From Candidatus Altimarinota bacterium (GTDB lineage: Bacteria > Patescibacteriota > Gracilibacteria > BD1-5 > UBA2023), in NCBI GenBank assembly GCA_028689245.1, contig JAQTWO010000003.1, positions 1 through 34,583 on the forward strand: a stretch of 34,583 bases of DNA. Direction: 5' to 3'. Within the stretch, counting starts at the first letter, position 1. Each line of letters opens with the position of its first letter. Under the pieces are notes generated by a model. It did not search any database, was not told where the DNA came from, and was given only the letters and a program-made list of their open reading frames with translations. Made by a program: the position numbers and the translations under genes. This document shows, in pieces, positions 9,125-29,040 of this stretch.

Positions 9125-9161
9125 AGGATGGGAAGATTTATAAAATAAAAGCTCTTTGTTT

Positions 9162-9330
9162 GTCATTTCGACCGAAGTGGAAGCCATAGCTCCCCCTTGT
9201 GGGGTCAATCCCTTTTAGTCGCTACTTTTGAGACGGTTTTTTCCAGATCGAACTCATGCTCTGTAATTTCTTTTAATAAAGCGTCATATATTTTGATCTA
9301 AAGGGATCCCTCGACTTCGCTCGGGATGAC
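9162..9330. repeat. GTCAT...ATGAC inverted intergenic repeat
   Basis: Left end GTCATTTCGACCGAAGTGGA, right end CCCTCGACTTCGCTCGGGATGAC; the ends are inverted copies. Same style as repeats at 4643, 5651, 24632, 29017 and 33953. It lies between pyrH and the HTH gene. Confidence 0.6.
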
Positions 9331-9348
9331 AGGATAAATATTCTCCCT

Positions 9349-10003: not shown

Positions 10004-11683
10004 TTATTTCGATCATCCTGCTCCTTTCATTCTCCGGATCCAAATATCGAACAACGGATGCGGTCGGTTCGGTCGGGATTTGAACTCCGGGTGGAATTGT
10101 GCGGCAATCATACAGGGATGGTCGCGAAGCTCGACGATTTCGACGAGTTCCCCATCGGGAGAAGTTCCGGAAATGATGAAACCCTTACTTTCCAAGAGTT
10201 CGCGATATCGATTATTGAACTCATAACGGTGGCGGTGGCGCTCGGAGATGATTACCTCATCCCCCTGCCCCTTCTCCATGACATGGAGAAGGGGGGATTT
10301 TTCTCCCTCTCCACGAGTGGAGAAGGTCGGGGTGAGGTATGCCTCATATGCAAGAGTTTTCGGTTGTATGATACACGGATAGGCACCGAGCCGCATGGTT
10401 CCACCCTTTTGCCGGATGGTTTTCTGATCCGCCATAAAGTGGACGATCTTGTGTACTGCCTGCTCGTCGAATTCTTCGGAATTGGCACCGGCAAGTCCGC
10501 AGACATTCCGAGCGAATTCTATCGCCATAATCTGCGATCCGAGACAGAGCCCGAGATACGGAACCTTGTGCTCCCGCGCATACTGGGCAGCGAGTATTTT
10601 CCCTTCTATTCCGCGATTCCCGAATCCTCCAGGAACCAATACCGCATCCATATCGTGAAGTATCGCATCGGTACCGTTCCTTTCGATATCCTCCGCATCG
10701 ATCCAGTGGATCACTGGTTTCACGGACTGGTGGTATGCTGCCGATTTTATCGCCTCGACCACCGAGATATAGGCGTCTTCGAGATTGTTGTACTTCCCTA
10801 CCATGGCGATATGCAGCTCTTCCGTCGTGTGTTTCATACGATTGACCAGCTCTTCCCAATCGGACAGATCCGGAGTTTTCACCGCGAGTCCGAGACGTTT
10901 CTGAAGCTCGCTCGCAAGCGAGGTTTTGGCGAACTCGACCGGCACGCGATAGATGGAATCGAGTGTCGGAGCCGGGATAACCCGCTCGACCGAAACGTCG
11001 CAAAAAAGAGAGACTTTCTCGCATATCTCCGCCGGTATTTCCGCATCCGCTCGGAGGATGATGAAATCCGCCTGGATTCCCCGGCTCCGGAGGTCGCGAA
11101 TCGCCGATTGTGTCGGCTTGGTCTTGAGCTCTTTCGATGCTGCGATATACGGAAGGAGCGTTACGTGGAAAAACTGGACATTCTCCGCTCCGAGCTCGAA
11201 TCGCATCTGTCTCGCCGCCTCGACGTAGAATTCGTTTTCCATATCTCCGACCGTTCCGCCGATTTCGACGATCATGATATCGCACTCCGAAAGTTCCGCC
11301 GCTTTTCGGATCTTTTCCTTCACGAGATTGGTCATATGCGGGATAATCTGTACCGTCTTACCGAGATATTGCCCATCACGTTCACGATTGAGTATCTCCT
11401 GATAGAGTTTCCCAGCACTGTAGGAGGAATGGGTATTGAGCGGTTCGTCGATAAAACGCTCATAATGCCCCAGATCCAGATCGGTTTCAGCTCCATCATC
11501 GGTCACGAACACTTCTCCGTGTTCAAACGGCGACATCGTCCCCGGATCGACATTCAGGTATCCGTCAAGTTTCTGTATGGAAACCCGGTACCCGGACATT
11601 TCCATAAGTGTCCCGATAGATGCGGCAGAGATTCATTTCCCTATACCAGAGAGTACTCCACCTGTCACGAATATGTATTTCAT
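10004..11683 (-). CDS. pyrG: CTP synthase
   Basis: A 559-aa enzyme making CTP from UTP, ATP and glutamine. It starts MKYIFVTGGVLSGIGK-G-IS, the hyphenated P-loop Gly being UGA; standard-code calling would lose these 26 residues. Synthase domain: SIQKLDGYLNVDPGTMSP, EIGGTVGDME. Glutaminase domain: VPGGFGNRGIEGK, nucleophile Cys in GLCLGSQ, AQFHPEF. A second UGA lies three codons before the TAA stop. Between GAYPC and ERHRHRYEFN sits a 27-28-residue insertion (LTPTFSTRGEGEK...) coded by a palindromic repeat. Upstream lies a promoter with a short ORF and terminator. Confidence 0.97.
10255..10337. repeat. Palindromic element inserted in frame in pyrG
   Basis: About 83 bp with terminal inverted repeats, CCTCATCCCC at one end and GGGGTGAGG at the other, and internal hairpins (CTTCTCCATG / CATGGAGAAG). 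On the pyrG strand it encodes LTPTFSTRGEGEK...EKGQGDE. The related element at 20252-20342 is read in the same frame. CTP synthases normally lack residues here. Confidence 0.8.
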
Positions 11684-19087: not shown

Positions 19088-19123
19088 AAAAAAGACCTAA
19101 TCTTTACAGATTAGGTCTTTTTT
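19088..19123. terminator. Bidirectional terminator for tRNA-Leu and the DEAD-box gene
   Basis: Six A, GACCTAATCT, loop TTAC, AGATTAGGTC, six T: perfect hairpin with U-runs on both strands. The stop codon of the minus-strand helicase lies inside it. Confidence 0.93.
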
Positions 19124-20544
19124 GTGGATCGATTTGAACTTCATGATGCAAAACGACGGGAAACAGGAGCTGTAGAAAACCCATGCGTTCGTTCGCTTGT
19201 ACGTGGCTTCTGATGAGAATGCCCCTCTCCCCTTCTCGGAGTTCTTGCAGATCCTCCGTAAAACCCTCCGTTTCCTCTCTTTGTTTCCTGGTTTTTCATT
19301 CCGTCGGATGAAGCTGCGCCGGTTCGTGGAAACGGATGCGATTCGACCACGGGGATCTTCTGGGAGATGAGTTTCTCGATATCTCGGAGAAATACCGTAT
19401 CGTCGTGATCACAGAAAGAAATCGCCATACCCTTGGCTCCGGCTCGCCCGGTACGACCGATGCGGTGTACGTAGGTTTCGGAGATATTCGGGATGTCGTA
19501 GTTGATCATATATTCGAGCTCATCGATGTCGATTCCGCGGGAAGCGATATCGGTCGCAACGAGCACCCGAGTGGTCTGTTCCTTGAAATTGGAAAGAGCC
19601 CGTTGTCGGTTGTTCTGGGACTTGTTCCCGTGGATGGCCTCGGCAACGATCCCTCGTCCTATGAGGAACTTGACTACCTTGTCTGCCCCGTGCTTGGTTC
19701 GGGTAAATACGAGCACATTCCGGATCTTCGGATCCTGGAGCAGATGGACGAGGAGATTATTTTTATTCCCTTTGTCCACGTGGTACACGGATTGGGTGAT
19801 AGTCTCGGCAGTCGTTGAAACGGGAGTGATCTCCACTTTCTCTGGATTTCGGAGAATACCCTCGGCGAGCTTCATGATCTCGGGTGCCATGGTCGCTGAG
19901 AAAAAGAGCGTCTGCCGCTTGACCGGGATGATCTTGAGGAGTTTTTTTATATCATGAATGAATCCCATATCGAGCATACGATCGGCTTCATCGAGGACGA
20001 ATATCTCGATATCCGCAAGCGAAACGTATCCCTGATTCATGAGATCGAGAAGACGTCCCGGAGTAGCAATGAGGATATCGACCCCTTGTCGGAGTCGCTC
20101 CACTTGATTCCCCTGCTTGACTCCCCCGAAGATAACCGCCTGATGGAGTCCGCAGTATCGTCCGTACGCCCGAAAACTCTCCTCGATCTGGATGGCGAGT
20201 TCTCGAGTCGGAGTGACGATGAGGGTTTTGATTTTCCTAACCTCCTTTCCGCCTCACCCCCGACCCCTCTCCTTTTGGAGGAGACTTTCCAGAGAGCATT
20301 CAATCTCCCCTCGCCCTTTGGGAGAGGAGCTGGGGGTGAGGGCTTTCTTCGCATGAAGCAACTGAAGGATAGGTATAGCAAAGGCGGCAGTCTTACCGGT
20401 TCCTGTCTGAGCACATCCAAGAAAATCCCGTCCTGAGAGGATCGTAGGAATAGCTGCTACCTGAATAGGTGTCGGGGTCGTGTACCCTTCGTCATCGATG
20501 GCACGAAGTATCGGTTCTATGATCGGAAGGTCGGAAAAGAGCAT
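19111..20544 (-). CDS. DEAD-box RNA helicase (RhlE-like) with in-frame repeat insertion
   Basis: A 477-aa protein read through two UGA glycines, which joins two standard-code ORFs. Motifs: Q motif ([14 protein letters not shown]), I ([11 protein letters not shown]), Ia (TPTRELA), Ib (TPGRLL), II (DEAD), III (SAT), V ([10 protein letters not shown]) and VI ([10 protein letters not shown]). Between motifs I and Ia lie about 33 extra residues ([12 protein letters not shown]... GRG-G-GGK) coded by a palindromic repeat. The basic Ser/Arg-rich tail runs through a UGA into the terminator and stops at TAA 19111. RhlE-type helicases remodel RNA in ribosome assembly and decay. Confidence 0.95.
20252..20342. 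repeat. Palindromic element inserted in frame in the DEAD-box gene
   Basis: 91 bp bounded by CCTCACCCCCGACCCC and GGAGCTGGGGGTGAGG, imperfect terminal inverted repeats, with internal hairpins. On the coding strand it starts [12 protein letters not shown], the same frame as the copy in pyrG (LTPTFSTRGEGE). One of its codons is UGA, so the host gene survives only under the recoded UGA. Confidence 0.85.
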
Positions 20545-20639
20545 AAAAAAAGATTTAGTTATTAGAGGGGCGTATCATATGATTAATATGATAGATAGCA
20601 AATAAAAATGACTATAATATACAATCCTCCATTTTCCCC

Positions 20640-20692
20640 TTGCATTTCACACCATACATACTATAATTCGGCTATTATTATCTAATAATACC
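20640..20692 (+). promoter_or_regulatory. Promoter of the TSP1-domain gene
   Basis: TTGCAT (20640-20645), 16-nt spacer, TATAAT (20662-20667), then an inverted repeat TATTATTA-TC-TAATAATA (20673-20690) just before ATG 20697, possibly an operator or mRNA hairpin. Confidence 0.6.
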
Positions 20693-20696
20693 CTGT

Positions 20697-22163
20697 ATGG
20701 ATACGAAAGAACAACAGAAGAAAGGATATAGGAAAGGATATCTTGTCGGATACTCTCCTCTGAGATTGCTGGTCCTTCTGGGTATAACTCCTGTTTTATT
20801 GGTGGGTGTTCTCTCTGCGACAGGGCTTTTTTCTTCTCTTCCCTCCAATCCTTCTGGATATGTAGCAGGAGGAAAGTTCTCTGAGAGATTGGCAAATATA
20901 GCTTCGGTTTCATGTCCGACGACTCCCGTGAAACATTTTGTAAAGTGATTCGATGGAGATTACAAACCGGTGTGTGTTCCATATAATGCTCCGACTACGG
21001 GGAATGCAAATGTTGCCACAGAAAGCTTCTCTGCACCAGTAGCTTGAGGAATGCCCGGAGGAAAGTTCGGAACCTACTTCAATAATATCCTGAACTACTG
21101 TTCGGGGAACGGGGTACTCAAAGGATTCACTTCGCAGGGACAGAAGATATGTGTGGATGCTTCTGATAGAACGACACCTACGGATAATCCAGTTCTGGCA
21201 TCTCTTAGTGCGTCATCTATTGCGTATCCGACAGCTCTTCCATCAGGAACGAGTTCCGGTGGAACATATCAGAGTTTCTTTAATACGATGTTCGGTACTT
21301 CTTGTGGAGCGAATAAGGGGATAGTGAAGTTTGGAAGTGATGGGGCTCCGGTGTGCGCAATTATGCCATTGGATGGAATGTGTGGTTCGTCCAATGGACA
21401 AAGTTACTATACAGCACCTACAACTGGACTTTGTATAAAATGAACGCAATCATGAGTATCCGGAAGTTGACCTTGGAGTTGGACATGTAGTGGTATGGAT
21501 GGCGGTGGAAGCGTGAGTTGTGGAGCAAATAAGAAAGTGGATGGAGGATGGACTGCTTGGTCAGGATTTTCTTCTTGCAGTGCCTCTTGTGGAGGAGGAA
21601 CTCAGTCAAGTACTCGAAGCTGTACGAATCCGAGTCCAGCGAATGGGGGATCTGACTGTAGTGGTATATCCTCACAGAATCAGAGCTGTAATACTCAGGC
21701 GTGTGCTTGCTCCGGAGCAACTCCATGTGGAACTCCTGGTGCTTGTTATGCAACATCATGATGTGACAATACCTGTGGATCAACCAAAGTAAGTGACTGT
21801 GCAGGAACGTGTGGAGGAAGTGCCGTGGATTACAATGGAGGAAGTGCGGGGTGTGGAAGTGCACTTCCTAACCAGTATGTAGCAATATACACTTCATACG
21901 GTTGACAAGGTGGTGGTGGGGTAAGTAGATCTGGGTATGGTTTTGGAGAGGGAATTAGCACATTTTACTGGATGACCTGGATTCCTTGTAGTAGTTTTAC
22001 ATTACCTCTATCTGAAGCTGAAGCTCAAAAAGTAACCGGGATGTATGGTGTTTCGTATATTCCCTCTCATGTTGGTAGTTTCTGAATGGGTTCGTCTATA
22101 GAGTATAAGCAATGTGCCGTGACTCAAGGGATAGACCTGTTGAACTCGGGTGGTAATAATTAA
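20697..22163 (+). CDS. Secreted Cys-rich surface protein with thrombospondin type-1 repeat
   Basis: A 488-aa protein with eight UGA glycines. Residues 23-45 (LRLLVLLGITPVLLVGVLSA) form a membrane anchor or uncleaved signal. Three degenerate repeats follow, each GG.(F/Y)..........C......V..F...G...C, near residues 58, 121 and 188. GPWSWTCSGMDGGGSVSCGA leads into a TSP1 domain at about 283-338: GWTAWSGFSSCSASCGGGTQ, NPSPANGGSDCSG, CNTQAC. The C terminus is Gly/Ser-rich then globular. TSP1 domains bind glycans or proteins, so adhesion to a host or partner cell is a reasonable guess. Confidence 0.9.
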
Positions 22164-29016: not shown

Positions 29017-29040
29017 GATTCCTGCCTTCGCAGGAATGAC
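29017..29040. repeat. Short GATTCCTGC...GCAGGAATGAC hairpin repeat
   Basis: GATTCCTGCC-TTC-GCAGGAATGAC, near-perfect palindrome ending in ATGAC like the other intergenic repeats; could serve as a weak terminator of the 27960 gene. Confidence 0.55.

Follow-up and report, generated by a model that had tools for sequence, protein, structure and literature searches.

Why a gene for CTP synthase should carry a palindromic sequence in its reading frame, and to what kind of element this sequence belongs, are the questions raised by pyrG of a Candidatus Altimarinota bacterium. The gene lies in a 34,583-nt stretch of its genome (contig JAQTWO010000003.1), the whole of which is referred to here as the window; the genome itself is designated G000, and its six congeners are designated G001–G006.

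The insert in pyrG

The host gene (10004..11683, minus strand) encodes a CTP synthase of 559 amino acids under code 25 and has two in-frame TGA codons. Its frame stays open only when TGA is decoded as an amino acid, namely glycine; code 25 fits because the P-loop glycine of GIGKGISAAS in PyrG sits on TGA. The palindromic element itself comprises 83 bp (10255–10337), starting with CCTCATCCCC and ending with GGGGTGAGG, and its coordinates had been placed correctly by the first-pass annotation, made from the sequence alone. The left outer arm TACCTCATCCC (10253–10263) pairs with the right outer arm GGGGTGAGGTA (10329–10339), the two being 91% complementary, and two hairpins are found between them. 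The hairpin of the first REP unit (10268–10294) is formed by CCCCTTCTCCATG/CATGGAGAAGGGG with perfect arms of 13 nt (10268–10280 and 10282–10294), and that of the second (10305–10326) by CCCTCTCCAC/GTGGAGAAGG (arms 10305–10314 and 10317–10326); the doublet, its arms and its units are listed without a strand. With the termini CCTCAyCCCC/GGGGTGAGG and the two internal hairpins, the element has the build of a REP doublet, and terminal inverted repeats, a classical trait of MITEs, are present. Folding it as single-stranded DNA gave -23.9 kcal/mol (z -4.3), a value equalled by none of 200 shuffled sequences. All six reading frames are open in the pyrG copy.

The Pfam GATase match (302–547) spans the insert and the frame remains open under code 25, in agreement with the earlier claim of an in-frame insertion between conserved blocks of the glutaminase domain in an otherwise intact gene. 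On the chain of the Thermus CTP synthase, the insertion point corresponds to the interval between residues 460 and 465; an AlphaFold model of the insert-bearing PyrG had a mean pLDDT of 49 and was too poor for placing the loop. An empty site is present in a sister genome of the same genus (G001, 79% identical), which reads LAYEAY-KTTE-ISERHRHR at the position where PyrG of the window reads LAYEAY-LTPTFSTRGEGEKSPLLHVMEKGQGDEVI-ISERHRHR. By this comparison 87 nt replace 12 nt of G001, so that the net gain is 75 nt or 25 residues, and not the approximately 27 residues first proposed. The insert is flanked by TA on both sides and 12 ancestral bases are replaced; no clean target-site duplication with intact ancestral sequence was seen at pyrG in comparison with G001.

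The element had further been described as residing in an essential gene of a recoded organism. The organism is recoded, TGA being read as glycine, but essentiality is not secure, since pyrG is patchy in the genus: it had no match in five of the six congeners, four of those five being 93–97% complete. CTP synthase is found in only two of the seven genomes of the genus, a distribution reflecting either loss or horizontal gain.

Copies of the element in the genome

With the pyrG element as query, 12 matches were obtained in its own genome at E ≤ 0.001, and with the copy from the helicase gene (see below) 33 places were found at E ≤ 1. The core CCTCACCCCNNNCCCCTCTCC, one mismatch being allowed, occurs 37 times in G000, in contrast to 0 occurrences of the same pattern read backwards; the counts in the six congeners are 0, 1, 1, 2, 2 and 13. 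Each REP unit is built of a tail CCTCAyCCC(C) and a hairpin with a variable loop, and pairs of units facing each other form doublets of ~80–110 bp. Short hairpin units, high copy number and inverted pairs, the features defining REP/REPIN doublets, are all present, and that the pyrG insert is an in-frame REP doublet may be taken as good as certain. The first-pass annotation had named two observations that would speak against an inserted palindromic element, a lack of further copies and conservation of the same insertion in distant CTP synthases; searches of the genome and its relatives revealed many copies, and the latter was likewise not observed.

It is scarcely credible that the insert is just an ordinary variable loop whose sequence is GC-rich and of low complexity, or that it was created by misassembly of a binned genome. 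G000 is indeed a draft of 99 contigs (92% complete, 5.6% estimated contamination); however, near-identical copies exist elsewhere in it, that in argS being 86% identical to the pyrG element, the core count far exceeds its control, one and the same host gene continues on both sides of the insert, and like elements occur in independent genomes.

A second REP doublet (20252–20341, no strand given; arms 20252–20272 and 20321–20341) lies in frame within a DEAD-box helicase gene (19111..20982, minus strand), whose true start is probably near residue 125. It contains one internal TGA, read as glycine, and the corresponding residues 214–246 have no counterpart in the homologue of any of the six congeners. 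Homologues of the helicase begin near residue 121–125, so that the ~123 codons upstream of the helicase proper (20614–20982), of which an 82% identical copy exists at G000:C11:2201-2566, are probably a separate repeat or the result of a wrong start.

Tallied from the matched loci and not from the whole genome, copies are also found within the Pfam-recognised genes argS, leuS, tsaD, lgt, ligA, ksgA, rsmB and recG, a radical-SAM gene and an exonuclease-helicase gene, and additionally within pcrA, an Elp3-like gene, fmt, the genes for RNase R, a VWA protein and a penicillin-binding protein, and others. In tsaD, ksgA, pcrA, leuS, argS and the VWA gene a single Pfam domain alignment crosses the REP insert. 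An in-frame TGA is used by four of the 18 in-gene inserts listed, and a dependence of the insertions on TGA recoding was therefore rejected: recoding helps but is not required.

Relation to Rickettsia palindromic elements

Insertion in frame into several unrelated genes is a trait of the Rickettsia palindromic elements (RPEs) and, as read from the sequence, is found here too, in housekeeping genes in particular. The exact 21-mer CCTCACCCCCGACCCCTCTCC of the REP family was, among the matches listed, found in Bacteroidota, Chloroflexota, Planctomycetota, Verrucomicrobiota, Pseudomonadota, Cyanobacteriota, Patescibacteria (Candidatus Gracilibacteria STC_113 among them) and others. The core is thus not tied to Rickettsia, since it recurs letter for letter in many phyla. 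The first-pass comparison with RPEs consequently stands as regards the behaviour of the element, i.e. a repeated in-frame palindrome with genomic copies and an empty site in a sister genome, but not as regards its affiliation, which is with a REP family of many phyla. That a true RPE was gained by transfer seems very improbable: the behaviour is the same, in that unrelated genes contain a short palindrome within their frame, yet the core belongs to this other and far more widespread family, a nuclease-coding form of it exists, and RPE4 and RPE6 were described as CGTC-tagged (PMC3733652), whereas no such tag occurs in the pyrG element. Neither a GTAG nor a CGTC end tag was seen in the 64 units listed, their ends being CCTCAyCCC. 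In-frame REPs outside Rickettsia have already been reported (PMC3733652).

A larger form with a DUF559 nuclease

Two larger in-frame inserts were found in G000, one in recG (L033) and one in an rsmB-like gene (L023/L197), each containing a DUF559 domain flanked by pyrG-family REPs in inverted orientation. The description of the element as a repeated in-frame palindrome was hence accurate but incomplete, the larger REP-DUF559-REP form having been beyond the view of the first-pass annotation. Among 40 relatives, DUF559 directly between pyrG-family REPs was observed in G005, G035 (a genome of the window's family), G043 and G052, and the identical build was found outside the phylum in Akkermansiaceae (L061), Prevotella (L067), Verrucomicrobia (L134) and Planctomycetota (L155). 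In a miaB-like gene of G000 (L016) the DUF559 belongs to another clade, and the palindrome that brackets it, CCCCCTTGAGAAAGGGGG, is a different one. In the rsmB-like gene L023 (G000:C1), one open frame of 685 codons takes in four REP insertions together with the DUF559 domain.

Flanking inverted repeats were scored by taking 220 bp on each side of the domain and locally aligning the preceding segment with the reverse complement of the following one, a score of at least 30 being taken as positive. This was reached by 75.5% of 53 DUF559 loci, a set drawn partly from genomes chosen for holding the REP (the relatives not being so chosen), as against 0.7% of 572 boxes from the same loci. Among 21 plasmid-collection records selected by protein similarity alone and not for REPs, 12 (57%), including Sinorhizobium meliloti pSymB, Pseudanabaena, Sphingobium and several Deinococcus and Azospirillum, had flanking inverted repeats versus 2.7% of control boxes (p 6e-10). 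A single-protein DUF559 query of viral contigs yielded one locus and no sign of viruses as main carriers. In a Chloroflexi genome (G020:C1 964385-978555), many whole and fragmentary DUF559 genes occur within ~14 kb. It is well supported by these data that the pyrG insert belongs together with the REP-DUF559-REP elements.

The nuclease assignment agrees between profile and predicted structure, both of which place DUF559 in the EDxHD/Vsr-like nuclease fold. A profile of eight DUF559 domains matched PDB 3hrl (E 4e-30) and 3r3p, the homing endonuclease I-Bth0305I (E 4.7e-4), and the best two Foldseek hits of the AlphaFold model (pLDDT 90) were the same entries (9e-8 and 2.4e-4, respectively), Vsr being matched weakly. 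Residues E56, D58, H62 and D69 are invariant in the DUF559 alignment. A DUF559 gene has been assigned to the EDxHD family in a genome paper (PMC9403480). The Caulobacter DUF559 protein VsrA is reported to cause DNA damage, and with it a damage response, in cells without a cytosine methylase (PMC12907096).

Nuclease domains in host genes and alternative states of one loop

At 24 loci the frame stays open for 100 residues or more to either side of DUF559. Host Pfam domains were recognised on both sides in RecG (G000, G001, G052 and G054), MiaB-type proteins (G000, G035, G042 and G044), MnmA (G002, G043 and G052) and RsmB/F (G000 and G005), and also in RecQ, MgsA, HsdR, a type ISP enzyme and a class I aminoacyl-tRNA synthetase; in HsdM, DUF559 is located near the C-terminal part. 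No intein splicing (Hint) domain was detected in the Pfam scans of the hosts.

The recG loop ILESRK | IQVAILAPTE is empty in G002–G006 and filled in G000 (REP type A) and G001 (REP type B), the two fillings being independent because they involve different REP families and different DUF559 clades. One and the same loop of mnmA, between TGHYAR and LLKGVD, is empty, filled by a doublet or filled by REP-DUF559-REP depending on the relative. It has 19–24 residues in most relatives. G005 carries a pyrG-family REP doublet in this loop, G000 and G042 carry other palindromes, and REP-DUF559-REP occupies it in G002, G043 and G052; G030 has DUF559 there too, with flanks that failed the inverted-repeat test. 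The palindrome in mnmA of G000 (L330, G000:C65), occupying in frame the loop that holds REP-DUF559-REP in relatives, is of a second family, the VIPAEAGIQ type, with GTCATTCCCGC...GCGAGGATGAC.

What moves the REPs

The copy number of the REP was compared with the presence of candidate enzymes in the 40 relatives, genomes with three or more core copies being regarded as REP-rich. DUF559 of clade A, i.e. the clade bracketed by the pyrG-type REP, was present in five of five REP-rich genomes and in one of the 35 others (p 9e-6), a comparison that ignores kinship, rests on six mutually related genomes and includes some DUF559 matches without a classifiable locus. Y1_Tnp, the family of the known REP-associated transposases, showed no link, being present in 2/5 REP-rich and 7/35 other genomes (p 0.31). 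REP copy number hence tracks the matching DUF559 clade and not the RAYT transposases.

That a RAYT or TIRYT tyrosine transposase moved the REPs in trans and has since been lost from the genome, the DUF559 link being secondary, appears unlikely. The outer motif GGGGTGAG does fit the TIR motif GGGGWSAS reported beside RAYT-like genes (PMC3733652), a Y1_Tnp gene is present in 16 of 18 element-bearing genomes, and 36% of the 22 Y1_Tnp loci scored at least 30 in the inverted-repeat test. Against this, no PF01797 match for a cognate RAYT was found in the G000 draft, nor in the REP-rich G005 and G051, from all three of which Y1_Tnp matches were absent; there was no correlation among the 40 relatives; and none of the retrieved Y1_Tnp loci was directly flanked on both sides by the pyrG-type REP. 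A RAYT as the mobiliser in G000 was rejected on the grounds of the gene not being found and of the lack of correlation.

A more serious alternative, to which we nevertheless give only about a one-in-four chance in our own estimation, is that DUF559 is a passenger, the doublets being spread by another enzyme while a homing-type ORF repeatedly invades harmless common spacers. A nuclease merely settling in existing REPs would likewise produce REP-DUF559-REP, and this counts against the explanation preferred here. REPs are known targets of insertion sequences, to judge from the reference list of PMC3733652, ISPpu9 being inserted in REPs (PMC8450116), and the predicted fold of DUF559 is that of a homing endonuclease. 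Doublets, moreover, outnumber nuclease forms, of which only two with the pyrG-type REP were found in G000, and six of 28 REP-bearing genomes showed no DUF559 gene. The passenger role is opposed, besides the missing Y1_Tnp in G000, G005 and G051 and the copy-number relation, which follows clade-A DUF559 and not RAYTs, by the pairing of nuclease clades with their own REP families. Eight Gracilibacteria DUF559 sequences form one clade (SH-aLRT 97), seven having the pyrG-type REP and one a variant, and on the DUF559 tree, with few columns and many unresolved forks, two A/B changes suffice for REP type to follow nuclease clade. Polarity points the same way: all eight asymmetric doublets located in genes have the CCCTCTCC-type unit leading on the coding strand, an order shared by the two nuclease forms of G000 (p about 0.007, from a small sample and uncorrected for the choice of test), while, as far as stop codons are concerned, either polarity is about as open as the other.

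The likeliest reading is, in our judgement, that DUF559 moves the REP family, and the pyrG insert is probably a non-autonomous, MITE-like form of a REP-DUF559-REP mobile element, translated in place. Comparison of sequences shows a repeat family with empty sites, an open in-frame reading and DUF559 bracketed by the same REPs; it likewise shows a pairing of REP type with nuclease clade and an mnmA loop with nothing, a doublet or the nuclease form. Two inverted REP units, as a doublet, would have entered a loop of the glutaminase domain of PyrG. The larger element has the same ends and encodes a small nuclease of the EDxHD/Vsr fold, and both forms settle in frame in loops of housekeeping enzymes. 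The nuclease may move the REPs through cleavage of their hairpins or of the target DNA, the element then being copied during repair, and doublets may arise when the nuclease ORF is lost. The inserts would be translated and not spliced, the host enzymes presumably staying active.

Comparison with known systems

In being short, high-copy palindromes, single or as inverted doublets, dispersed genome-wide and partly within genes, the repeats resemble REPs/REPINs; they differ in the absence of a visible GTAG/CGTC tag and of a RAYT from the genome, and in that the bracketed enzyme is a DUF559 nuclease and not an HUH tyrosine transposase. TIRtrons/TIRYT (PMC3733652) have ends GGGGWSAS, of which GGGGTGAG is one case, but those ends flank RAYT-like genes instead of DUF559. 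I-Bth0305I (PDB 3r3p) has in common the nuclease fold and selfish insertion in conserved genes; it belongs, however, to a group I intron, whereas here no intron or intein was seen and the nuclease domain lies between REPs within the frame of its host. The Caulobacter protein VsrA shares the Pfam domain DUF559 but is interpreted in terms of mismatch repair, and the available part of that paper (PMC12907096) mentions no REP association. No connection of REPs with DUF559 emerged from the literature searched, which consisted mostly of freely accessible journal papers.

The mobiliser of RAYT-less REP families has been stated to be an open question for CGTC REPs (PMC3733652), and a nuclease recurring between matching REPs in several phyla is a directly testable candidate spreader of RAYT-less REPs. 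The odds appear roughly even that the elements constitute a new class of bacterial mobile element, in which REPs are propagated by a cognate DUF559 nuclease and not by a tyrosine transposase, autonomous REP-DUF559-REP and non-autonomous doublets persisting as unspliced in-frame loop insertions, and which could underlie some of the RAYT-less REP families. Nuclease domains lying unspliced in recG, mnmA, miaB or hsdR would reveal a way for selfish DNA to live in essential genes that needs neither introns nor inteins, and would account for unusual fusions and for peptides like LTPNPSPKGRGE in annotated proteins. Where TGA is recoded, stop codons frequently drop out of the palindrome, and genomes of this kind may thereby be easily invaded.

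Other repeats in the window

Three further palindromic sequences were noticed in the window. An intergenic imperfect palindrome, GTCATTTCGACCGAAG ... CTTCGCTCGGGATGAC (9160–9336), is by its appearance another type of dispersed repeat. At 2838–2882, TGTTCTCGCTCATGGTAC forms an inverted repeat of 18 bp without mismatches, the arms being separated by a loop of 9 nt. Just past the end of an ORF, the hairpin ATTCCTGC-CTT-CGCAGGAAT (29018–29040), followed by GAC, resembles a common repeat of the VIPAKAGI type.
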